A DNA stretch of 49,987 nt, taken from a virus. Of the stretch, positions 38,828 to 49,987 are shown piece after piece. The stretch lies in the IMG/VR virus record IMGVR_UViG_3300032294_000420, positions 1 through 49,987 of that record; one strand, 5' to 3'. The translations under genes were made by a program, and so were the position numbers. The notes under the pieces were generated by a model. It saw nothing but the letters and a program-made list of their open reading frames with translations, had not been told where the DNA came from and searched no databases. Each line of letters starts with the position of its first letter. Position 1 is the stretch's first letter.

Positions 38828-40936
38828 TTAGTACTCAATAGCCGCAGCGGTTGCTCCACCAGTTGTGTCGCGGAGGGCAGCAGCCACACCGTTGACAGAA
38901 ATGGTTGAAGTAACTTGTAGTGACTCTACGCCAACGCGTGCAACACCTTCGAAGGTTTCAACGAACATCTTGTAGTCGTTGGTTCCAACTAGTGAAGAGT
39001 CACGGATAATTCCTAGGTCCAAAGTTCCGCCATCGAGGAACAAGAATGTTCCTTCAGCGAAGATGTACCAAACGAATGTATCTGCAAACTCGTTCATTGC
39101 ACCTGTGCTCTGTGCTCCATCAAATGAATCAATGTGCCATGTGATGTTGATACCACGAGAAGCAATGAATCCTTCGATTTCTGCATAAGCGTTAAGGGTG
39201 CTATCACCAGGCATTGATAGAGTGAGGTCTGCTGCCATTGCATCCTTGACCCATACTGGGGCAATAACGCGAAGTGGAGCATCTGCCTCTAGGCGATGAC
39301 GGCCACGGTAGTTAGCAGCAGCACGACCTAGTTGAACTAGGAAGTCGCGTGCAACACCGATAAGTGAAGTAGAAGTCACTGCTGTTGAAAGAGTGCTTAG
39401 ACGAGAAAGAATCTGTCCTTCTGCTTCACGAGCGTGCTGAATCAGACCCAACTCGTTGTGACGAGCGATGAGTTCTGGGTAAGCACGAGTCATCAAGTTA
39501 CCGAACTGTAGTTGCAAGGTTACTGCGTCAGTTGCAACAGTTGTTTCTGATGCTGCTGAGACTGTAAGACTTGTCTTAACGTCAGTTCCTGGGTTTGTAT
39601 CAGTTGCGTTTGTCCAAACACCAACAGCATTTCCATAAGATGAAAGAACTGGTGGGACAACGAAGCGGATACCGCCACGGTCAGCCTGGAACTTAGGTAG
39701 CGCATCCTTTAGAGGACGAGCAGTTGTTCCAAGTCCGAAAATGTCGTACTTGACTTCGAATGGTGCTGAGTGGCCACCTGAAGCAACAAGTGCTTCTGGA
39801 CCAGTTACAGCCTGTACTTTTGCCCAGTTTGATTCTGGGTCTGTTGTTAGTGTGCGCTCTTCTGGATATACAGTAGATACAGAAGCAACAATGTGCTGCT
39901 CTCCATCTCCACCGTTTACACGACGTAGTGCGTGTAGACGCTTGCTCATTGCCTCAGCAACGGCGTTCATATCTGAAAGTGGGCTACCAGCCGTATAACC
40001 TGGAATATCTGCGCCCGCTGTGATTGCCACAGGTGCGGCAGAAGTCCGAGATGTTGGACGGCGGTCAGCCGGTACCTCAATGTTGAGGTTGTCTGCGTTG
40101 TCAGCAGCGGCGGTCACGGGTGCCTCCATAGTTTCTTGAACCACTGTTGGTTCACTTGCTTCGGTTACTGTTTCTTGAATAGATGCTTCTGCTCCTTCAG
40201 CAACTTCAGTTGTAGTTTCTGCTGATGCAGCAACTACTTCTGGTGTCTCGACTGCTGGCGCTTCCGCGGTTTCGGCTGTTGGAGCCTCTGTTGTTGCTTC
40301 GGTAGAAGCAACTACTGTTTCTTCTGCAACAGCAGCGACTGGTGTCTCTACTGTTTCAGTTGTTGCTGGGATTGTTTCTGGGGTTGAGAACTCTGAGTTC
40401 TTATCCGCATCTGTTGATGCTTCCATGGTTTCTTTCTCCTCGTCTTCTTTCTTGTCCTTTTCCATGTCAACAGGAGATTTTTCTTCTTCTGCTGCTGGAG
40501 TTTCTGCTGGAGCCGCTGGCATATCTGCTGCTGCTTCAGGCTTCTTCTCCTCTTCCATGGCTGGGGCAGGAGTTTCGACTGGTGCTTCTTCTACAGGTGC
40601 TTCAGCAGCAGGAGCGGCAGGAGCCTCTTCCATTTGCTTGTCATCTGTTGGTGATGCATCCATGTTTTCCTCTTTGTCGCCATCTTGACCGTAAACGCGG
40701 TTAGCGGCCTCGGTGGCTCGCTTTGCAAGTTCTACAACCGCGGCCTCGCGGCGCTTGACTTCGTTACGAACTCCATCAAGCATATCGGCAAGCGACGTCA
40801 TAGCATCAACTGTCTGCGGAGTAGGGTCTTCTTTCTCAACCGATTCAAATTCACTGAGGATTGCTGATTGAAGTTCAGTGACTTGTTCGTCACCGAGTTC
40901 ACTCAGTTGGTCCATCATTCCTTTAATACGGTCCAC
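38828..40936 (-). CDS. Major capsid protein with fused scaffold and acidic linker
   Basis: 702 residues, GTG start with GGAGG ideally placed. Residues 1-83 are helical (IKGMMDQLSELGDEQVTELQ and VRNEVKRREAAVVELAKRAT), like an HK97-type delta/scaffold domain. Residues 84-285 are low complexity, rich in Glu, Ala, Pro and Thr. From about 290 an HK97-fold capsid domain follows (SDMNAVAEAMSKRLHALRR, IFGLGTTARPLKDALPKF, REAEGQILSRLSTLS, then FEGVARVGVESLQVTSTISV). The protease encoded in the upstream polyprotein probably removes the N-terminal part during maturation. The 200-residue acidic linker is long compared with typical delta domains. Confidence 0.88.
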   Translation of the reverse strand: MDRIKGMMDQLSELGDEQVTELQSAILSEFESVEKEDPTPQTVDAMTSLADMLDGVRNEVKRREAAVVELAKRATEAANRVYGQDGDKEENMDASPTDDKQMEEAPAAPAAEAPVEEAPVETPAPAMEEEKKPEAAADMPAAPAETPAAEEEKSPVDMEKDKKEDEEKETMEASTDADKNSEFSTPETIPATTETVETPVAAVAEETVVASTEATTEAPTAETAEAPAVETPEVVAASAETTTEVAEGAEASIQETVTEASEPTVVQETMEAPVTAAADNADNLNIEVPADRRPTSRTSAAPVAITAGADIPGYTAGSPLSDMNAVAEAMSKRLHALRRVNGGDGEQHIVASVSTVYPEERTLTTDPESNWAKVQAVTGPEALVASGGHSAPFEVKYDIFGLGTTARPLKDALPKFQADRGGIRFVVPPVLSSYGNAVGVWTNATDTNPGTDVKTSLTVSAASETTVATDAVTLQLQFGNLMTRAYPELIARHNELGLIQHAREAEGQILSRLSTLSTAVTSTSLIGVARDFLVQLGRAAANYRGRHRLEADAPLRVIAPVWVKDAMAADLTLSMPGDSTLNAYAEIEGFIASRGINITWHIDSFDGAQSTGAMNEFADTFVWYIFAEGTFLFLDGGTLDLGIIRDSSLVGTNDYKMFVETFEGVARVGVESLQVTSTISVNGVAAALRDTTGGATAAAIEY

Positions 40937-41104: not shown

Positions 41105-44100
41105 TTAGGTAAGTAAGCGAAGTAGTTTAGACATCTGGCTAGAGATTTCGGACTGGTTGTAATAGTCGCCTCCAGACATGAAAGACTTCAGGTCCTTGGT
41201 GGCTATGGCAGCGTCTTCTTTGCCAATCTTATCTTCTACTCTTTTTATCATATCTTCCATCAGGCTCTTGAGAGCAGGTGGAATATCGCTGAAACGAATC
41301 TTTTCAGCATCAGCGCCGAAGGCAAATGGCAAGTTAGCAATAACTTTTCCAAGTTCTCCAGCGCTGTTTCTGACGTTTTCTAAACTTTCAGGATTCAACG
41401 CTTTAGTGTCCAATCTGTCAATAATGCTAATCAAATCGCCAGCAGCCTTGGCTGCTCCAGCGTAATTTCCAGCATCATCTAGATTTTCTGCTTCTTCGAT
41501 TTTCTGAATTACTCCTTGTGCACCAGACACACCTAAATCAGTTTTCAGCCGAGCGAGCACTTGCCGAAACTTGCCAGAGGCATCTCTAGGTTGTGTCTTT
41601 CCTGGTACATATTTTGCTCTATCGTTTTGCTCGCTCTTATCGGCTTTTTTTAGTAAATCCAATTCTTCTGGAGACAGACCTTCTAAGTCTGCTTCAGCAA
41701 AATCAAATGCCGAGAATTCGGAGTAAGACGCTTCATCTAAATCATTTCCATCAACTAACAGAATAATGATTTCCTCTTCAGGCTCCCAGTTTCCGTCGTG
41801 TAGATTGTCTGGTTCAGAAGCAATCTCATTGACATCTTTTGCCATATCTTCCTCAGTAACCTGAGTAATAAAAGTGCCCAAAAGTTCATCAATTTCCGCA
41901 AAAGATTTACGTTGTTTATGCATCTTTGCGTGTGTTGCTGTATAGAAACCAAGTGCTTCTTTGTGGCGTAGTTGGCAATATCCCTTAGAACGAGGTCCAA
42001 GATATTTTGACAAATACTTTACGCAGCGCTTCCAGTCTCCTGGTGCACCCCAGCGAATCTTCGCTGCTCCTTCGCCTCTTGTCCAGTAGCGACGAAGTCT
42101 TTCAGCATTTCCACGGTTGCGGTCTAAACCACCAGCAGCAGTTTGAGACTCAATAATTTCAGCAGCACCAGCAGATGCAGTGCGACCTGCTTCTAGCCAA
42201 TTCTCTGGAATCAAATCATCGCGTTCTAACTTGCGAGCCATCTTCATAATGTGACGACGAACTAGTCCACGCTTTCCTGGCTTTGAACGACCATATGCGT
42301 GAACAGCATTTTTCAAATCACCAACATTGCGAAGTGGGAAAGAACCATCTTTGAGAGCCTTTCCTTCTTGAGCAAGTTTTTCACGAACTCTGCGTGTTAC
42401 TACAGCAAGTTCTCCTTCAATACTAAATTCTTGAAGTAGATACTCGGTATCTTCATCACGCATCTTTCTTACTTTTGATGCAAGTTCTTCTGCTTTTATC
42501 GCTGCTGTCATAGCAGTCATACGAGACTTAGCATCTTCAGCAGCAGCAACTAGTGGCGCTTCTAGTTTCTCTACTCTGTTGTTAAGTTCACGCAGAGGGT
42601 CGTGCTTTAGTTGTGCAAGAACACTTGCACCTGCTGCAACAAGAGCCATTACCTGACCTGAAGCAACGCGAGCACGAGCAATTGGGAATCCTGGAACGTT
42701 TACTTGGCAGACAGCAACAAGTTCCAAAGAGCCCTTAATTGGTCTCCAGTCTCCTGAAGGGGCAGAGGCACGAAGTGCACGAATTTGCTCCGGTGTTGTG
42801 CCAGGACGAAGTGCTCCAGCAACCCAAATTCCGTAAGCATCTTCTCCAGCATGAACATCTGCTACAGCAGAAGCGGTGTCGTCATAGTGACGAACTGCTT
42901 CAGAAGCGGATGCTTCTAGCGATGCATGTCCTCCAGCCAAAGTTAGTTGTCCAACTGGCATATCAGCACCTTCTTCGGTGCGAACAACTCCAGTGTGGAA
43001 ATAAGCATATTTGCTCTTACTGCGTGGCGGCTTAGTTCCAAATGCCATACCAATATGGTCAACGTTCCAAGCAGCAATGTGCCCGAAAACCTGTCCATCA
43101 TCTGTCACCGTTAGACCAGTTGGTTTGTTTAGTTTAGGATTATCAAACCACTGCTTAGGCGGAGCAACTGGGATTGCCCCAGCAACGATTCCGCACGCCA
43201 CGAGTGCAGATGCATCTAGCGGATTAACGCCATCCACATACACTCCATCTTGTATCACTTGCTTTTCCTCCTGGTCTGCCACTTGGTCATCAAGAACAAT
43301 CTTGCATTCCTGAAAAGCGGGCTTAGGTACAAGAGTTACTGCCATAACTCTTGCTTTTGTTATGTTCATTTTACCGCCTCCGACTTTGCTGTCAGAGTCG
43401 CTTTCTGAAGCCTGTTCTTCTTTGGCCTCAAACATATCCATGTCTGCCGAAACACCACGGATAAATCCACCGCGAACTAGTCGCTCTGCTTCCTTGCCAT
43501 ACTCGCCTGTATCAAAGAAACCACGAGCATTTCCAATACCACCATCAACTCGTTCCATTTCGATTATCTTTCCGATAACCACGGAACCGCTGTGGCCTTC
43601 ACCAGTCTTTATCTGCCACAAAAGAGGGAGAGGAAGTTCTCTCATAGTGATAGAACCACCCTCAAACTTTCTACCATCTCCAGACTCGATTCCTTCAGGA
43701 ATAACTAGAGGAATAGAAAACGCTGCTCCGTTAGATGTCTCTTCCGAACCATCAGCAGTGATTCCATAAACCCTTGCTCTGGCATCAGCAAGTTGAGCCT
43801 TGATAATTGATTGAGCAATAACAGCATTTGAAGGGATAATAAAATCTGTTGAGAAGGCATCTGCTTTCATGCCCTTCTTTCCAAACTTTTGACGATGCTC
43901 TTTATCTCCAGTCCATAGACCAGTTGCTTCCTTATGACGAAGAGCGCAATATCCTTTAGAGCGAGGACCCATGTATTTAGATAGTTGACGAACGCAACGT
44001 GTCCAATCGCCTGGAGTATTCCAACGAATCTTTGCTGCACCACGACCATAAAGCCAATAGCGGCGAAGTTCTTCAGCATTTCCTCTGTTCTTATCAACCC

Positions 44101-46342
44101 CACCAGCAGCCATCAAAGCAAGAACTGATTCTTCAAACGTATATCCAGATGCTGTTGTTGCAGAATCAATTTGAGACATAACTGCTGTCAACATATTGTC
44201 ATCAAGAACAACCATTGGTGGAGGAGTTGGACTCTTGATGTCAGTAAGAATTGCTTCGTCTCTCTCCCACATTCCAGGCTTACGAATATATGTCATAGGC
44301 TCGTTTGATTCTGAAGATGCAGGAACTAGAGATACTAAATCCATAACTGCCTGAGGGTCATCTGGTGAAACAATTGCCATATAAATTGGAGGAACATCAG
44401 ATGTTGCTGGAGTAAGTTCTACTGCTCCAGCAGCAACAAAACCTGAAGACCTAACTGGAGGAGCCCAAGGAGCGTTAGGTTTTTTATTTAGCCAACTTGG
44501 GTCTTTGCTCTCATCCCATGATTTAGCATCTGGCTTCTTGCCATATTTTTCAATCATATTTGGGTCTTTAAGACTTGGCATAAAGAATCTAGCGTTTGGA
44601 GAATAAGTGCTTCCGTCTGGACGAGTCACTGTTTTCTCTAGAAAATCACGAAGCAGCGGGTCGTTGTAAGCATTTTTACTCTTATATGTAGCAAGTTCTG
44701 CTGCTGTTTTTTGGAATGCTGCACTCTCTACTTTTTGCACATATGGATTTACTGGTGGCTTAGCCGAAGGTGTAGGAGCAGGAGCATTGGTAGGTGGAGT
44801 TGTTAGATTTGAAGCACGAAGGTTTTGAGTCCAAGCGCTGTAATCTTCTCCTATAATTTTTACTTTATCGTTTCCAATTTGTGGAAGACGGTCAGGCATT
44901 GTTGCGAAAGGTCTGTCAATAGGAACTCTAGGTTCTCCCAGAATACCTTGGGTTAGGTTTCTTGGTGTTCTTTCGCTCTTCATTGGTATCGGCTTGAAAG
45001 TATCTGCTGATTCAGTTGTATTGGCTGGAACATCAACAGAGTTTCCGTTAGGGAACTTTACTTTTACTGTTTGATTAGTTGGGTTGATAGATTGAATTGT
45101 TCCTGTGTATTCAGGATTACCACCAACAACAACTTTTCCACCAGCCTGAGCAAACTTTCCAGACTTATCTCTTACTTGAGAAGAAGCCTTTTTAGAACGC
45201 TCTTCTGGTGTGTAGTTTCCATCTTGATTTGTTGGTGCAGCAGGTTTAGTTGAATCTAAACCTCCTTCTCCAGCAGCAGTTACTGTGTTCTCTGAAAAAT
45301 CCATCCACTCTGCGTATTTTGGATATTCGTCTGTGTAGTCATAAGAAATATCGTCAATCAAATCCCAATCAACGCCATGCATTTCATCTAAGAAAAGTTT
45401 TGACTCTTCTGGGTTTATTTTTTCAACAGAAATGGTTTTTTCTGGGTCAGCATCAATAAGTCCAGATACAGCAATAGCAGTGTCAACATCTACAGGGATG
45501 TGCATTTTTGGACAAGTATCGTATGGCTCATCAAGTGAACGGTCATATGTTTCAAAATCGTTATTGATGTTGCCTAGGTCTTCCCACATAGCGTCGTCCC
45601 AAACATAGACGCTACCGTCAACATTCATTTTGTATAGACGGTCAATTCCAGTTCCATCTAAACGAATTCTTACAAAAAATTGAGGAGCAAGAGTTTCTGG
45701 TAGAGATAGTGCTTCAATAAAAGATGAAAGTTGTGCTTGCTCTGGGTTCTCATACTCAGACATAACAAAGTTGTAGGAAGCAGTAATAGAGTTTGCTTGC
45801 GCTTTTCTATTTTCACGATTTACGATTGCTGTAGCCCAAGACTTAGCTGCATCTCCTCCCCAGAGTGCCCAGGCGATGCGCCCATTACTTGGATATTCTG
45901 CTACTCCAGGCTTGTAGCCTTTTCCCTTTTTATCTACTTCGTGACGTGGGAAGTATTTAGCGATGTGACGAATTTTGCGAATACCGATTTGCCCACCACG
46001 AGCAAGAGTCCTAGCAGTATTGAGTCCTACAGAAGTCCCCCCGCGGTTTTCTTCTTTGCGCCACTCAAGACCGCGCTTTGCTTCAGCCTGAACTGATTTT
46101 GGAATTGTATAAAGACGGTCATTATTTGAAAAAACTTTTATATCTAAATCAGTAGCCGCTGAAACAGCAAGTTCGTATGGAACTGATTCTGGGTTTGTTT
46201 GGTCGCCTTCAGGAGTGAAGGAAGCAATTAGTGGCTCAGCCTGGTCTACAGCCAAAACAATCTTTTTTGTTTCGTCAATAAGTACAGCCTTATCTTCAAT
46301 GCTGAACAAGACCTTATTACCGCTACGACCAATGAATTGCAT
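41105..46342 (-). CDS. Giant head-maturation polyprotein with prohead protease
   Basis: 1745 residues. The start is taken at 46342 because GAGGA lies eight bases upstream; an in-frame ATG at 46369 would overlap the preceding gene by 23 bases. In order: an N-terminal part; RDKSGKFAQAGG with a KOW-like barrel (about 390-440); a linker; a Cys-containing domain (748-820); a prohead serine protease (about 870-1015, His917 in GEGHSGSVVIGK and Ser965 in GGFIRGVSADMD); a conserved actinophage domain (LTVTDDGQVFGHIAAWN, YAYFHTGVV, HAGEDAYGIWVAGALRPG); a helical region (DLKNAVHAYGRSKPGKRGL); a second copy of the Cys domain (1404-1475); and a C terminus with KTQPRDASGKFRQVLARLK. The protease should process the capsid, and perhaps this protein itself. 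Confidence 0.85.
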   Translation of the reverse strand: MQFIGRSGNKVLFSIEDKAVLIDETKKIVLAVDQAEPLIASFTPEGDQTNPESVPYELAVSAATDLDIKVFSNNDRLYTIPKSVQAEAKRGLEWRKEENRGGTSVGLNTARTLARGGQIGIRKIRHIAKYFPRHEVDKKGKGYKPGVAEYPSNGRIAWALWGGDAAKSWATAIVNRENRKAQANSITASYNFVMSEYENPEQAQLSSFIEALSLPETLAPQFFVRIRLDGTGIDRLYKMNVDGSVYVWDDAMWEDLGNINNDFETYDRSLDEPYDTCPKMHIPVDVDTAIAVSGLIDADPEKTISVEKINPEESKLFLDEMHGVDWDLIDDISYDYTDEYPKYAEWMDFSENTVTAAGEGGLDSTKPAAPTNQDGNYTPEERSKKASSQVRDKSGKFAQAGGKVVVGGNPEYTGTIQSINPTNQTVKVKFPNGNSVDVPANTTESADTFKPIPMKSERTPRNLTQGILGEPRVPIDRPFATMPDRLPQIGNDKVKIIGEDYSAWTQNLRASNLTTPPTNAPAPTPSAKPPVNPYVQKVESAAFQKTAAELATYKSKNAYNDPLLRDFLEKTVTRPDGSTYSPNARFFMPSLKDPNMIEKYGKKPDAKSWDESKDPSWLNKKPNAPWAPPVRSSGFVAAGAVELTPATSDVPPIYMAIVSPDDPQAVMDLVSLVPASSESNEPMTYIRKPGMWERDEAILTDIKSPTPPPMVVLDDNMLTAVMSQIDSATTASGYTFEESVLALMAAGGVDKNRGNAEELRRYWLYGRGAAKIRWNTPGDWTRCVRQLSKYMGPRSKGYCALRHKEATGLWTGDKEHRQKFGKKGMKADAFSTDFIIPSNAVIAQSIIKAQLADARARVYGITADGSEETSNGAAFSIPLVIPEGIESGDGRKFEGGSITMRELPLPLLWQIKTGEGHSGSVVIGKIIEMERVDGGIGNARGFFDTGEYGKEAERLVRGGFIRGVSADMDMFEAKEEQASESDSDSKVGGGKMNITKARVMAVTLVPKPAFQECKIVLDDQVADQEEKQVIQDGVYVDGVNPLDASALVACGIVAGAIPVAPPKQWFDNPKLNKPTGLTVTDDGQVFGHIAAWNVDHIGMAFGTKPPRSKSKYAYFHTGVVRTEEGADMPVGQLTLAGGHASLEASASEAVRHYDDTASAVADVHAGEDAYGIWVAGALRPGTTPEQIRALRASAPSGDWRPIKGSLELVAVCQVNVPGFPIARARVASGQVMALVAAGASVLAQLKHDPLRELNNRVEKLEAPLVAAAEDAKSRMTAMTAAIKAEELASKVRKMRDEDTEYLLQEFSIEGELAVVTRRVREKLAQEGKALKDGSFPLRNVGDLKNAVHAYGRSKPGKRGLVRRHIMKMARKLERDDLIPENWLEAGRTASAGAAEIIESQTAAGGLDRNRGNAERLRRYWTRGEGAAKIRWGAPGDWKRCVKYLSKYLGPRSKGYCQLRHKEALGFYTATHAKMHKQRKSFAEIDELLGTFITQVTEEDMAKDVNEIASEPDNLHDGNWEPEEEIIILLVDGNDLDEASYSEFSAFDFAEADLEGLSPEELDLLKKADKSEQNDRAKYVPGKTQPRDASGKFRQVLARLKTDLGVSGAQGVIQKIEEAENLDDAGNYAGAAKAAGDLISIIDRLDTKALNPESLENVRNSAGELGKVIANLPFAFGADAEKIRFSDIPPALKSLMEDMIKRVEDKIGKEDAAIATKDLKSFMSGGDYYNQSEISSQMSKLLRLLT
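41912..42136 (-). repeat. Duplicated domain in the polyprotein, second copy
   Basis: About 75 residues starting GGLDRNRGNAERLRRYWTRG and containing KYLGPRSKGYCQLRHKEA. It is the partner of the copy at 43880-44104. Identity is high over the first 60 residues and then drops. Confidence 0.9.
43880..44104 (-). repeat. Duplicated domain in the polyprotein, first copy
   Basis: About 75 residues starting GGVDKNRGNAEELRRYWLYG and containing KYMGPRSKGYCALRHKEA. The two copies flank the protease and the conserved domain after it. Confidence 0.9.
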
Positions 46343-46346
46343 GGCT

Positions 46347-46664
46347 TTATTCCTCGTCTTCCAAGTCATCTATATCAACAGATTTGTATTCCAAAACTTC
46401 TGATACAGGGATGATTTCATCTAGTTCTTCAGCCTCGTCGTATACTTCTATAAAATCTGGAGTTACATAGACCAATGATAAATCATCTAAATCTACCTCA
46501 TAGTCATCTTCTGGGCCAAGCATCTCTCGCCATTCTTTTTGATAGCGATAGAAAAGACCTTCATCTCCAGCATCATAAATAAAAATAACTATTTCATCTG
46601 CTTCAATGTTACAAAAAACCATCAAGTCATCAAGACTATCTGGCTTGTTTGGTGAGAATGCCAT
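46347..46664 (-). CDS. Acidic small protein before the polyprotein
   Basis: 105 residues, extremely acidic (PEDDYEVDLDDLSLVYV, VDIDDLEDEE), with a beta-rich core (DEIVIFIYDAGDEGLFYRYQ). It starts two bases after the stop codon of the Cys-cluster gene, and the polyprotein's preferred ATG follows five bases after its stop. It may be a DNA-mimic-like, scaffolding or chaperone protein of head assembly. No family is recognised. Confidence 0.6.
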   Translation of the reverse strand: MAFSPNKPDSLDDLMVFCNIEADEIVIFIYDAGDEGLFYRYQKEWREMLGPEDDYEVDLDDLSLVYVTPDFIEVYDEAEELDEIIPVSEVLEYKSVDIDDLEDEE

Positions 46665-46666
46665 AA

Positions 46667-47479
46667 CTACTCCTTTACCTTACTGTCGTCTATTGGACCA
46701 CCTGTCACCCAAGCGCGACAGGTCCTAGATGCTGCACACTTAAAATCAAATGCTTCGCAGTATCCAAGTTCAGCAGTTCCGATGGCATCCCACGCATCGG
46801 ATTCGGAAGAACCTCCCTGCTCAATTCCTTGAGCAATACAGTTCTTCATATCGGTAGTTACGACAAATACGGCGCAGTTCCCACAGCGTTGTTTCTTTGC
46901 TGTTTCTGTATCAACTTTCCATTCGGAGGCTATACCCTGCCAATATTCTTCGTTTGGCTCTTCTGGGTTTAGCGGTCCATACATGGCAGTGTCAATTGCG
47001 TTCTTGCGGTTTTTTAGATTAAGAGCAATGTCTTGCGTTGCTGGCGGGCATGTTTGCTCTCCAGCGGCTGTCATTGCTTTATCTTTTGGCTTTACTGGTT
47101 TATAAGATTTTGGCTTAAAATCTTCAGACGAGTAGTCGTCAATAAGTTCTTCTTTGGCAGCAGATAGTGCATCATCAAAAGAAGGATAAGACTCCATACC
47201 TTCTTCATCTGTATAAAAATGAACTGGCATGTTGTATGTGACAACCTCAAGAATTTCTGTAGCAGCAGTTTCTGTATCAGTTACAGTATCTACACCTTCA
47301 ATGGCAGCAAGTCGTGCTCCAATGCCTTGAGAAATGGTTTCAATAGTATTCTCTGTTGCAGTTTCTGGGAATAGAATTTCTGTTCTATCTCCATCTGTGA
47401 CGATAACAAAAGCAATGCTTTGGTTTTCTTCTTCTTCTTGATAATTAGAGAAGTAGTAGGTTCTGTAGTAATTACTCAT
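46667..47479 (-). CDS. Head-region protein with C-terminal cysteine cluster
   Basis: 270 residues. The first 130 are acidic and variable. From Cys144 (EQTCPPATQDIALNLKNRKN) the protein enters a domain I recognise from many phage head operons: KKQRCGNCAVF with Cys199 and Cys202, Cys214 (MKNCIAQG), Cys241, Cys248 and Cys254 (GYCEAFDFKCAASRTCRAWV), then TGGPI. The pattern recalls small high-potential iron-sulphur proteins, so metal or cluster binding in a head protein is likely, although its role is unknown. It is tightly packed between the kinase-domain gene and the acidic gene. Confidence 0.75.
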   Translation of the reverse strand: MSNYYRTYYFSNYQEEEENQSIAFVIVTDGDRTEILFPETATENTIETISQGIGARLAAIEGVDTVTDTETAATEILEVVTYNMPVHFYTDEEGMESYPSFDDALSAAKEELIDDYSSEDFKPKSYKPVKPKDKAMTAAGEQTCPPATQDIALNLKNRKNAIDTAMYGPLNPEEPNEEYWQGIASEWKVDTETAKKQRCGNCAVFVVTTDMKNCIAQGIEQGGSSESDAWDAIGTAELGYCEAFDFKCAASRTCRAWVTGGPIDDSKVKE

Positions 47480-47481
47480 TA

Positions 47482-49987
47482 TTAATAACCCTTCTCTATT
47501 TTTGTAGCAAGTTTTCTTGCGTTTTTGATAATGTATTCTGCTCTAGCATCAAGATACGCGGAGGCTCTGGCATCAATGAACTGCATAGCAGCAGCACGCT
47601 CACGCATACGAGTAGCAAACTCTACTATCTGACTTTCGGCAGCATCAATACCAATATCTCTGACGTGTTGCTTAGCAAGAGGAATGACTGCGTTCTTATT
47701 TCCATGCCCACCATTACCAAAAACTACATCTATCGGGTCTAAATGAAGTGGGTTGTCTTCGTTTTTATCTGCTTCTCCAAAAGCACCATTGAACAAAGCA
47801 AGACCATTATCAACAGGAACAAGTCTTGCTTGACCAGCAGCGTCTCGTCCCCACATAAAGTTTCCACCATGTCTATCAGAGTTCCCAATGATTGCGTTAG
47901 CAACAATGAAATCTAACAGTTCACCTCTAAACTCAGGAATTATCTGACTAATGTCGTTTACATTTGTTTCGCCATTGTTCTTGATGTTTTGTAGGCCAAA
48001 AAACCCTGGTCCAGCAAACTCCATAACACCAAGTCCTCCGACCTCCATTTGTGGAGAGTCTGGGTTGACTGCCTTGGCAGCAGGAGAAGCAAATCCTAGA
48101 GCCTTGTAGAGTTGAGCAACCATTTCTTCTGCTTTAATTCCATTACCTTTGAACTTTGGTTTATTGTTGTATTTATCTTTGTCATACTTGATGATAACTA
48201 CTTCTTTAGTAACAGAATTTTCAAGGAGGATAAGTCCGTTTATTCCTGCTGTGAGGTTAGACTTAAATTTCCAATCTCCCCAAACAACATCACCTCTTCT
48301 AAGTTTGAAGTTACCGTTACTATCCCAGAAAACATCAGCACTCATACCTTCAAATTCTCTAGCGACCTTAGCCACAAACTGATTTGCTGTATCAGAGCCA
48401 ACCTGAGGTACAGGAAGTTTAGGTAGTTCTCCAATGCCTTGGAATCCGGCCTTAACTCTTTGAAGTCTTTCAATAAGTGGAGCAGCCTCGTCCTCCGGGA
48501 GTCTTGCTTTAGCAATTTGAATCAACTCGTCAATATTTCCCGGTGCGCCAATAACTGCATTTCTAAATATAGGATTGAAAGGGTCAGGGTAAATAACTGC
48601 GTTGTCGAAGTTCTTTCTAAGAATTTTTCTTCTATCGTTAGCCATCCACCCAAGTTTTGCTTCTATATCTTTATTCAAAGCATACATTTCAGGGAACAAC
48701 TCTTCTATAGCAGCAACTTTTGCCTCAAACTCGGCATCCATCTTTCGTAAAGGTATTTCTTTTTGAAGACCGGCTAGAGCATCTAACTCTTTTGCTACAT
48801 CAAACCATCCAATACCTCTTGCGTATGTAGCAGCCCGCTTCATATCTGCTCCAAAGCGTGCACCTTGACGTCTATCAATGTCATCTGTGCCTAGAAGTTC
48901 TGCAAGTCTTTTCTTTCTATACTCTAAGTTTTCTTGTAACTTAGTGTCATCCCAGCCATCAGGTTTTTGGACATCAACAAACTCTTTATCAACAAGTGCT
49001 GCTTTTATCTCTCTAGCGCGAACCTTAGCGCTCTTCAAATCAAGAGCCTGTTTTGCTGGAAGTGGTGGAACTACAGCAGTATCACGAGTAAGAACTGGTT
49101 GAACTTCTGGTTCTGGAATTCCTGCGTAAGCACGAAGAACTTTGTTTCCATCTTCAGCATCTACAACATCTTCAATGAATCTGTTTACGACGGCTTGAAC
49201 ATCTGCAAGCATTCTTGCCTTAGCAATGACCTCTCCTCTTTGGCCACCATCTTTAGGGAACGCTGCTGCTTCATATTCGTCACCAATTTTTACAATACTA
49301 ATGTCGAATTGTTTGTTCTTTTTGTCAGCAACATTTCCAGTAAAGATTTTACGAGGAGCATCTTCTCTTGGTTCTGGTTGTTCTGGCTTTTCCATAAGTG
49401 CTGGAGCAGAAGGCTCAGCAGCCGGTGCTTCTGGAGTTTTCTTTGAAACAGGGCCTTGAGGATTATTTCTACCACCTCTATTGTTTGGCTTTGCTACGCC
49501 ACCCTTCCAGTTTTTCTTCTTTAGATTTTCTATAACTTCGTTAGGGTCATCATTTACAACATGAAGGTTGTTAGCAACAATTAAACGAGCACCATCATTT
49601 TCTATGGCGTTAGCGACCTCTTCGTTTTCCCATTGAACCCAAACAAAGTCCAAACGTGCCTTACCGTCTCTAGCAAGAGCGCCAATCTTCTTTCCTTCAT
49701 CTACTTGGTCTCCAACACGACGCTTAACAATTCCTCTTCCAAGTTTTGCTGCTTTCACAGGGTCGGCATGGACAACAATGTCTCCCTTTAGAACAGGCTC
49801 TCCGTCTGCTCCATTGAAGAATCCTCTATTTTCTTTAATATCAATAGCAGGAGCAACTCGTCCTTCACGAATCTTTACTTGCTCTAGTGGGTCTTCTTGA
49901 CGACGAATATCAGGTCGCTTTGCTCTTCCACGAGCCTTTCCTACAGGTAACTTAGGTGCTGGACCTTCTCCCTCAATACGACGGACA
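47482..49987 (-). CDS. Head-module fusion protein with kinase-like domain, 5' part missing
   Basis: The frame stays open from the stop to the right window edge, so the GTG at 49758 is internal and the true start lies outside (at least 834 residues present). Visible order: a basic segment; a small beta domain (KRRVGDQVDEGKKIGALAR); a Pro-rich linker; a domain with VKIGDEYEAAAFPKDGGQRG; a helical region; then a kinase-like fold from about 48300 to 47500. Kinase signatures are EVVIIKYD (ATP lysine), KAEEMVAQLYKALGF (paired Glu), NSDRHGGNFMW (catalytic Asp and metal Asn) and VPVDNGLALF (DFG-like Asp). This pattern matches HipA/PI3-4 kinase-like families. Its position upstream of the protease is where portal or MuF genes usually lie. 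Confidence 0.8.
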   Translation of the reverse strand, partial: VRRIEGEGPAPKLPVGKARGRAKRPDIRRQEDPLEQVKIREGRVAPAIDIKENRGFFNGADGEPVLKGDIVVHADPVKAAKLGRGIVKRRVGDQVDEGKKIGALARDGKARLDFVWVQWENEEVANAIENDGARLIVANNLHVVNDDPNEVIENLKKKNWKGGVAKPNNRGGRNNPQGPVSKKTPEAPAAEPSAPALMEKPEQPEPREDAPRKIFTGNVADKKNKQFDISIVKIGDEYEAAAFPKDGGQRGEVIAKARMLADVQAVVNRFIEDVVDAEDGNKVLRAYAGIPEPEVQPVLTRDTAVVPPLPAKQALDLKSAKVRAREIKAALVDKEFVDVQKPDGWDDTKLQENLEYRKKRLAELLGTDDIDRRQGARFGADMKRAATYARGIGWFDVAKELDALAGLQKEIPLRKMDAEFEAKVAAIEELFPEMYALNKDIEAKLGWMANDRRKILRKNFDNAVIYPDPFNPIFRNAVIGAPGNIDELIQIAKARLPEDEAAPLIERLQRVKAGFQGIGELPKLPVPQVGSDTANQFVAKVAREFEGMSADVFWDSNGNFKLRRGDVVWGDWKFKSNLTAGINGLILLENSVTKEVVIIKYDKDKYNNKPKFKGNGIKAEEMVAQLYKALGFASPAAKAVNPDSPQMEVGGLGVMEFAGPGFFGLQNIKNNGETNVNDISQIIPEFRGELLDFIVANAIIGNSDRHGGNFMWGRDAAGQARLVPVDNGLALFNGAFGEADKNEDNPLHLDPIDVVFGNGGHGNKNAVIPLAKQHVRDIGIDAAESQIVEFATRMRERAAAMQFIDARASAYLDARAEYIIKNARKLATKIEKGY

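Follow-up and report, generated by a model that had tools for sequence, protein, structure and literature searches.

The window analysed here, a linear fragment from IMG/VR (IMGVR_UViG_3300032294_000420), comprises 49,987 bases of viral DNA. At its right end lie, all on the minus strand and in this order, a partial open reading frame, the genes for a Cys-cluster protein and a 105-aa protein, a protease ORF, the major capsid protein (MCP) gene and tail genes. The partial ORF (47482..49986) is open at the window edge, and its visible 834 aa represent the C-terminal third of a giant head-cluster protein. The last 305 aa (47482..48399) form a kinase-fold domain of the PI3/4K-HipA-CtkA group with intact catalytic motifs, recognised by Pfam, profile matches, alignments and an AF2 model searched with Foldseek. 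Immediately N-terminal of the kinase, alignment and AF2 modelling place a predicted all-helical region (48400..49059) that is kept across the giant-protein family; the helices were modelled with moderate confidence, and the model as a whole, longer than that of the kinase domain, was weak (pTM 0.40).

The kinase gene stands, as an earlier note on this DNA had claimed, immediately upstream of the Cys-cluster and protease genes, all again on the minus strand. The Cys-cluster protein (270 aa; 46667..47479) is encoded by the next gene of the head operon and occupies the same place in the relatives L002-L004. Between it and the protease gene lies an acidic protein of 105 aa (46347..46664), identified from the ORF list and from L003. 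The 1754-aa ORF that follows (41105..46369) contains an S78-type prohead protease region (residues ~955-1025) together with accessory regions. Its Pfam match to Peptidase_S78 is weak (0.046), and that of the relative L012 reaches 20.9 bits against a cut-off of 21; the window ORF also matches PHROG head maturation protease families. A region of ~70 aa with the pattern K/RNRGNAE..LRRYW..G.GAAKIRW and conserved Cys residues is duplicated within this ORF (residues ~760 and ~1417) and matches PHROG_6439, whose function is unassigned. The MCP (702 aa; 38828..40936) has a long Glu/Ala-rich N-terminal extension and matches the PHROG_777 major head protein at 3.9e-78. Judged by the portal of L003, the nearest isolated phages, DSL-LC01 (74%) and Microbacterium phage Pumpernickel (62%), infect Actinomycetota.

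Four kinase motifs had been proposed in the earlier note for positions 47500-48300, and all four are present there in the order given. By alignment, EVVIIKYD (48181..48204) supplies the ATP-binding Lys on a beta strand (domain residue 71) and KAEEMVAQLYK (48103..48135) the alpha-C Glu. In an alignment of 18 sequences, NSDRHGGN (N-x-DRHGGN; 47860..47883) forms the catalytic loop and VDNGLAL (47794..47814) carries the invariant metal-binding Asp, equivalent to that of DFG. The domain thus has the succession of N-lobe Lys, alpha-C Glu, DRHxxN loop and metal-binding Asp that marks the PI3/4K-HipA-CtkA group. Residues N173, D175, R176, H177, N180 and D197 (domain numbering) were invariant among the 18 sequences, and relatives at 94, 81, 62, 56 and ~15-25% identity retain solely the catalytic residues. 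Upon realignment, the Lys and the alpha-C Glu proved to be kept in nearly all relatives; one distant member, L031, has no clear Lys in the alignment. That member, and the fact that activity is here a prediction from sequence, would be compatible with a pseudokinase or an ATP-binding structural module devoid of phosphotransfer. We consider this very improbable, since invariance of the catalytic residues alone at 15-25% identity is the pattern of selection for catalysis.

Taken singly, the window protein matched Pfam PI3_PI4_kinase with E=5.7e-5 and 23.6 bits against a gathering score of 27.1, and nine relatives (L018, L020, L024, L025, L033, L034, L070, L071 and L072) scored above the cut-off. 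A kinase profile made from the 18 sequences matched Pumpernickel gp82 (E=1.2e-13), Micromonospora phage pMLP1 (6.2e-12) and halovirus HSTV-2 gp16 (2.8e-11), none of which was among the sequences used to build it. When compared with the PDB, the same profile matched PI4K2, FAM20B, PI3K, CtkA and HipA with E values from 9e-5 to 0.04. A tblastn search of 50,697 phage records with the window protein gave no match at E 0.01, and no isolate was matched when the distant L033 and L025 kinases served as tblastn queries. No relative was confirmed by a scan of genome contigs restricted to exact peptide patterns, a result that does not imply absence from cells.

The structure prediction and fold search for which the earlier note had called returned a kinase fold. 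The AF2 model of the domain (pLDDT 73.8, pTM 0.79) includes C-terminal helices at residues 239-303, and its best solved match in Foldseek was CtkA of Helicobacter pylori (3akk, E=5.9e-5, prob 1.00), followed by PknB and CotH kinases; among viral models, the best match was a phage protein already named PI3/4-kinase. CtkA (PDB 3akj/3akk) shares the catalytic loop, although it is a bacterial rather than a phage protein and only 14% identical. Sequence comparison and predicted structure together confirm that the window domain belongs to the PI3/4K-HipA-CtkA kinase group and that its active site is intact. Two narrower identities were rejected: that of a CotH kinase, for which the Foldseek and Pfam matches were weaker than those to CtkA and PI3/4K, and that of the HipA toxin of HipBA, as HipA_C stayed below the Pfam cut-off (E=0.056) and no HipB-like gene was seen beside the kinase in the window or L003, the neighbours being head genes. 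Identity as a phosphatidylinositol kinase would rest on similarity to PI4K2. The pointers to substrate class are split, the nearest solved sequences being lipid (PI4K2) and sugar (FAM20B) kinases and the nearest fold a protein kinase (CtkA), and the substrate may be a protein, a lipid or another small molecule.

The gene is complete in L003 (L003:2984-11101), where it encodes 2705 aa and sits between two groups of genes: the portal gene with a 329-aa gene, and the genes for the Cys-cluster protein, protease and MCP. The window ORF is collinear with L003 residues 1916-2704 at 64% identity. Because L003 and other relatives show the whole gene, the window protein can be read as the C-terminal third of a protein of ~2700 aa whose N-terminus lies beyond the contig. 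The L003 protein carries a DEDDh exonuclease mid-chain (RNase_T 7.4e-12; FDWET and HAADAD motifs) and the kinase at its end. Both are also present in L012 (2969 aa), so that two unrelated enzymatic domains occur per chain in these two proteins; the window shows the kinase end only. In L013 (2446 aa) and L015 (2927 aa), the N-terminus (~350-700 residues) and the kinase are retained but the exonuclease is missing.

The description of this product as a head-morphogenesis protein, also made in the earlier note, holds in part. It agrees with the order portal, giant protein, protease, MCP in L003 and with a sequence tag common to the giant protein and the protease ORF. The visible part of the protein, however, lacks a recognised head domain; none was found with Pfam or PHROG in the window or L003 protein, no Phage_Mu_F domain is present in either, and the PHROGs contain no family for the giant protein. 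Cleavage by the prohead protease has a candidate site, [ILMVQ]TA[AST], whose positions are conserved between relatives and which is over-represented (17 vs 3) in the head ORFs of the window and L003; enrichment in DSL-LC01 was not significant (p=0.17). The strongest support for association with the head comes from other viruses, in which the same kinase domain is C-terminal on MuF, min_cap2, Portal_Mu and Nep1 proteins.

Isolated phages with homologous portals show what else may occupy the slot between portal and protease. Pumpernickel gp82 (2235 aa) ends with the same kinase. Mimi gp77 (2709 aa) has a UvrD helicase, Atuin gp71 (3113 aa) a UvrD helicase and an ADP-ribosyltransferase domain, and Forza gp80 and Sixama gp75 are ADP-ribosyltransferases. 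In DSL-LC01 the slot is filled by a DUF3626 protein and a 3289-aa protein, and in Zooman, Cece and Phendrix by large proteins with no Pfam match. The kinase profile had no match in DSL-LC01, Zooman, Mimi, Forza or GMA2. Its absence from relatives with homologous portals argues that the kinase is optional cargo and not a core assembly factor. In the Arthrobacter phages Mimi (L008:10984-16285) and Atuin (L044:5608-11537), genes of NAD-salvage type, for a phosphoribosyl transferase and a nicotinate ribosyltransferase, lie near an ADP-ribosyltransferase gene, before the portal.

Although these slot proteins are otherwise unrelated, an all-against-all comparison showed that they have a single short N-terminal segment in common. 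Six-frame translation of 18 stretches (1.1 million residues) contained 34 sites of this tag, written as the pattern Q.R[DN]..G[RKEQ][FW], against a mean of 0.14 (maximum 1) in shuffles; the sites are not independent events, because many of the phages are related. Cece, A3Wally and Atuin, uninspected for the tag before the pattern was fixed, are among the positives, and the Gordonia phages in this set lack the tag. Each site falls near the N-terminus of a slot protein, in the protease ORF (mid-chain or at the C-terminal end), in the neighbour of that ORF, or in the DUF3626 protein of DSL-LC01. In the window, pattern search placed one copy, QVRDKSGKF(A), inside the protease ORF (45152..45178, minus strand) and another, QPRDASGKF(RQVLARLK), near its C-terminus (41567..41593, minus strand). 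The DUF3626 protein of DSL-LC01 (466 aa; L005:19683-21083) follows directly after the portal and has, at its N-terminus, the tag of the giant protein. The tag is retained while the enzymes behind it change, and we read it as a putative prohead-docking or scaffold-binding motif.

A tag common with the protease ORF and a gene within the head operon would also suit a kinase that acts inside the prohead, phosphorylating scaffold, protease or capsid protein and thereby timing maturation. We regard this as unlikely. In close relatives that share these head genes, the slot contains a helicase, an ADP-ribosyltransferase or no recognisable domain, which means that the kinase is dispensable for assembly; moreover, the supply of ATP within a prohead would be doubtful.

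Among ORFs from our viral contig scans, the kinase motif lies a median of 153 aa from the C-terminus. In several viruses, both the head domain and the C-terminal kinase exceed their Pfam cut-offs: Phage_min_cap2 with the kinase in L071 (5.4e-97/6.9e-11) and Micromonospora phage pMLP1 (1.7e-75/7.7e-7), Phage_Mu_F with the kinase in L072 (1.5e-15/5.6e-8), and Portal_Mu with the kinase in L020 (1.4e-30/2.1e-6). The kinase ORF of L070 has a weaker portal match, L021 has a kinase ORF between portal and MCP, and L018 has two after the portal. In Mincapvirus haloviruses, whose host is archaeal, the kinase is fused to the neck protein Nep1; the first ~130 aa of Nep1 are common to 43 Hafunaviridae-type records, and full-length matches with the kinase occur in only 8 of the 43. 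Judged from these sequences, the best explanation for repeated joining to head proteins of different kinds is that the kinase has been selected to be present in the head.

These fusions bear on another explanation, that of a late-expressed cytoplasmic kinase which alters the host envelope so that superinfection is blocked, the role suggested for the 'Gratiaviridae' HipA-family kinase (PMC8008677). The gene position is the same, and the operon is late. Such a kinase would leave unexplained both the shared tag and the presence of the domain at the C-terminal end of MuF, minor capsid, portal and neck proteins, and we find it quite improbable for the window protein.

Independent N-terminal modules, repeated on adjacent ORFs with different bodies of which some end in kinases, were found in L031 and in L016, L019 and L033. 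In L031 (8696-19768), a tag of ~35 residues, NSWGS..EFN..HEPAGSP.GGQFA, stands at the start of or within at least six neighbouring ORFs and is followed by different bodies, one of which ends in the kinase. In L016, L019 and L033, a ~135-aa module (WDPSLSIPGTNRRGGWRCPVGTRYGGQ) sits near the N-terminus of two to three adjacent large ORFs whose C-termini differ, several being kinases; in L019, an MCP gene lies downstream. The haloviral Nep1 genes of L038 and L040 keep ~130 N-terminal residues, the remaining several hundred differing between virus genera, with some C-termini other than kinases. In L025, L026 and L027, a 2H phosphoesterase (2_5_RNA_ligase2, 6.9e-12) opens the kinase ORF, which also matches a HAD hydrolase weakly and may encode another multi-enzyme cargo protein. 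An 883-aa ORF upstream of the portal in L018 (L018:2816-5467) contains an intein splicing domain (1.9e-13), possibly in a terminase gene.

Of known systems, the phage polyvalent proteins (Iyer et al. 2017, PMC5512222) resemble the window protein in being giant and multidomain, encoded in a late or virion gene block, with unrelated enzymes in one chain and proposed packaging and delivery with the DNA; the giant gene indeed stands beside portal, protease and MCP genes. The kinases of polyvalent proteins form one Ser/Thr/Tyr-kinase clade without a C-lobe, mainly from Verrucomicrobia-Chlamydia and Bacteroidetes (pro)phages, and the text makes no mention of HipA or DnaQ (PMC5512222). That clade also has an insert between the catalytic His and Asp, whereas in the window kinase DRH is contiguous and C-terminal helices are predicted. 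MuF polymorphic toxins (Jamet et al. 2017, PMC5576092) likewise place a variable C-terminal effector on a head protein, as does the MuF-kinase fusion of L072. The window protein, in contrast, has no MuF domain, and the domains described for the toxins are nuclease, peptidase, ART and RelA-like, without kinases in the main text (PMC5576092). The 'Gratiaviridae' kinase (Benler et al. 2021, PMC8008677), a HipA-like kinase encoded between portal and MCP, is likened to ours by description and gene position alone; it is a separate late gene of Bacteroidetes phages, for which fusion or packaging was not considered. The haloviral 'phosphatidylinositol kinase' (HRTV-2 gp16, HSTV-2 gp16) matches the same kinase profile (E=2.8e-11) and is C-terminal on a neck protein, but has an archaeal host and a different N-terminal module; its name is a database annotation that the genome paper does not discuss. 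We found no published description of a phage kinase fused to a head protein in the accessible literature, which was mostly without subscription papers and preprints, and rejected 'HipA' in PMC12419801 as a precedent, it being a list item and not a fusion. Packaged multi-enzyme proteins are already known in concept as polyvalent proteins, and MuF toxins apply the same idea to one head protein; the kinase-head fusion appears new, though it may have been described elsewhere.

Our study establishes the kinase family and its intact active site, the fixed place between portal and protease, the shared tag, the exchangeability of the enzymes and the repeated fusion to known head proteins. We infer, each in its turn, presence in the virion, injection, activity and substrate. 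The kinase is probably the C-terminal effector of a giant (~2700 aa) cargo protein that is packaged in the head and likely ejected with the DNA; the kinase would then phosphorylate a host target as infection begins, and we favour injection over a role in assembly. The N-terminal part (conserved over residues ~1-700, with the tag Q-x-R-D-x-x-G-R/K-F/W) would anchor the chain inside the prohead, next to protease and scaffold. Behind it, the middle and C-terminal parts carry enzymes that can be exchanged: in this protein an exonuclease and the kinase, in relatives a helicase or an ADP-ribosyltransferase. The head would close around the packaged protein, whose chain the prohead protease might cut at the candidate site; the enzymes would exit with the DNA, and the kinase would modify a host molecule early in infection. 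Against this reading count the size of the protein, 2700 aa being very large for passage through a tail unless cut, the lack of a recognised head domain in the giant protein, the lack of the tag in the Gordonia phages, and the split pointers to substrate class. T4 Alt would be a parallel, as a head-internal enzyme that is processed, injected and modifies host proteins; it is an ADP-ribosyltransferase with a different targeting sequence. A broader proposition is possible but doubtful: that tailed viruses share a modular cargo system of short head-targeting tags and interchangeable enzymes, including a broadly spread HipA/PI4K-like kinase, in which the tag (Q-x-R-D-x-x-G-R/K-F/W in this actinophage group, others elsewhere) would alone direct proteins into the prohead through the protease/scaffold protein bearing the same motif.

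The phage kinases that have been characterised (T7-type, 933W) are synthesised inside the infected cell (PMC8008677). If the cargo reading is true, viruses of both bacteria and archaea would possess a class of kinase that enters together with the DNA and acts ahead of all viral gene expression; Microbacterium phage Pumpernickel gp82 and halovirus HSTV-2 gp16 would be clear candidates in cultured viruses. Furthermore, the tag would offer a handle for finding other cargo enzymes among what are now 'hypothetical proteins', and for learning how giant cargo enters proheads.
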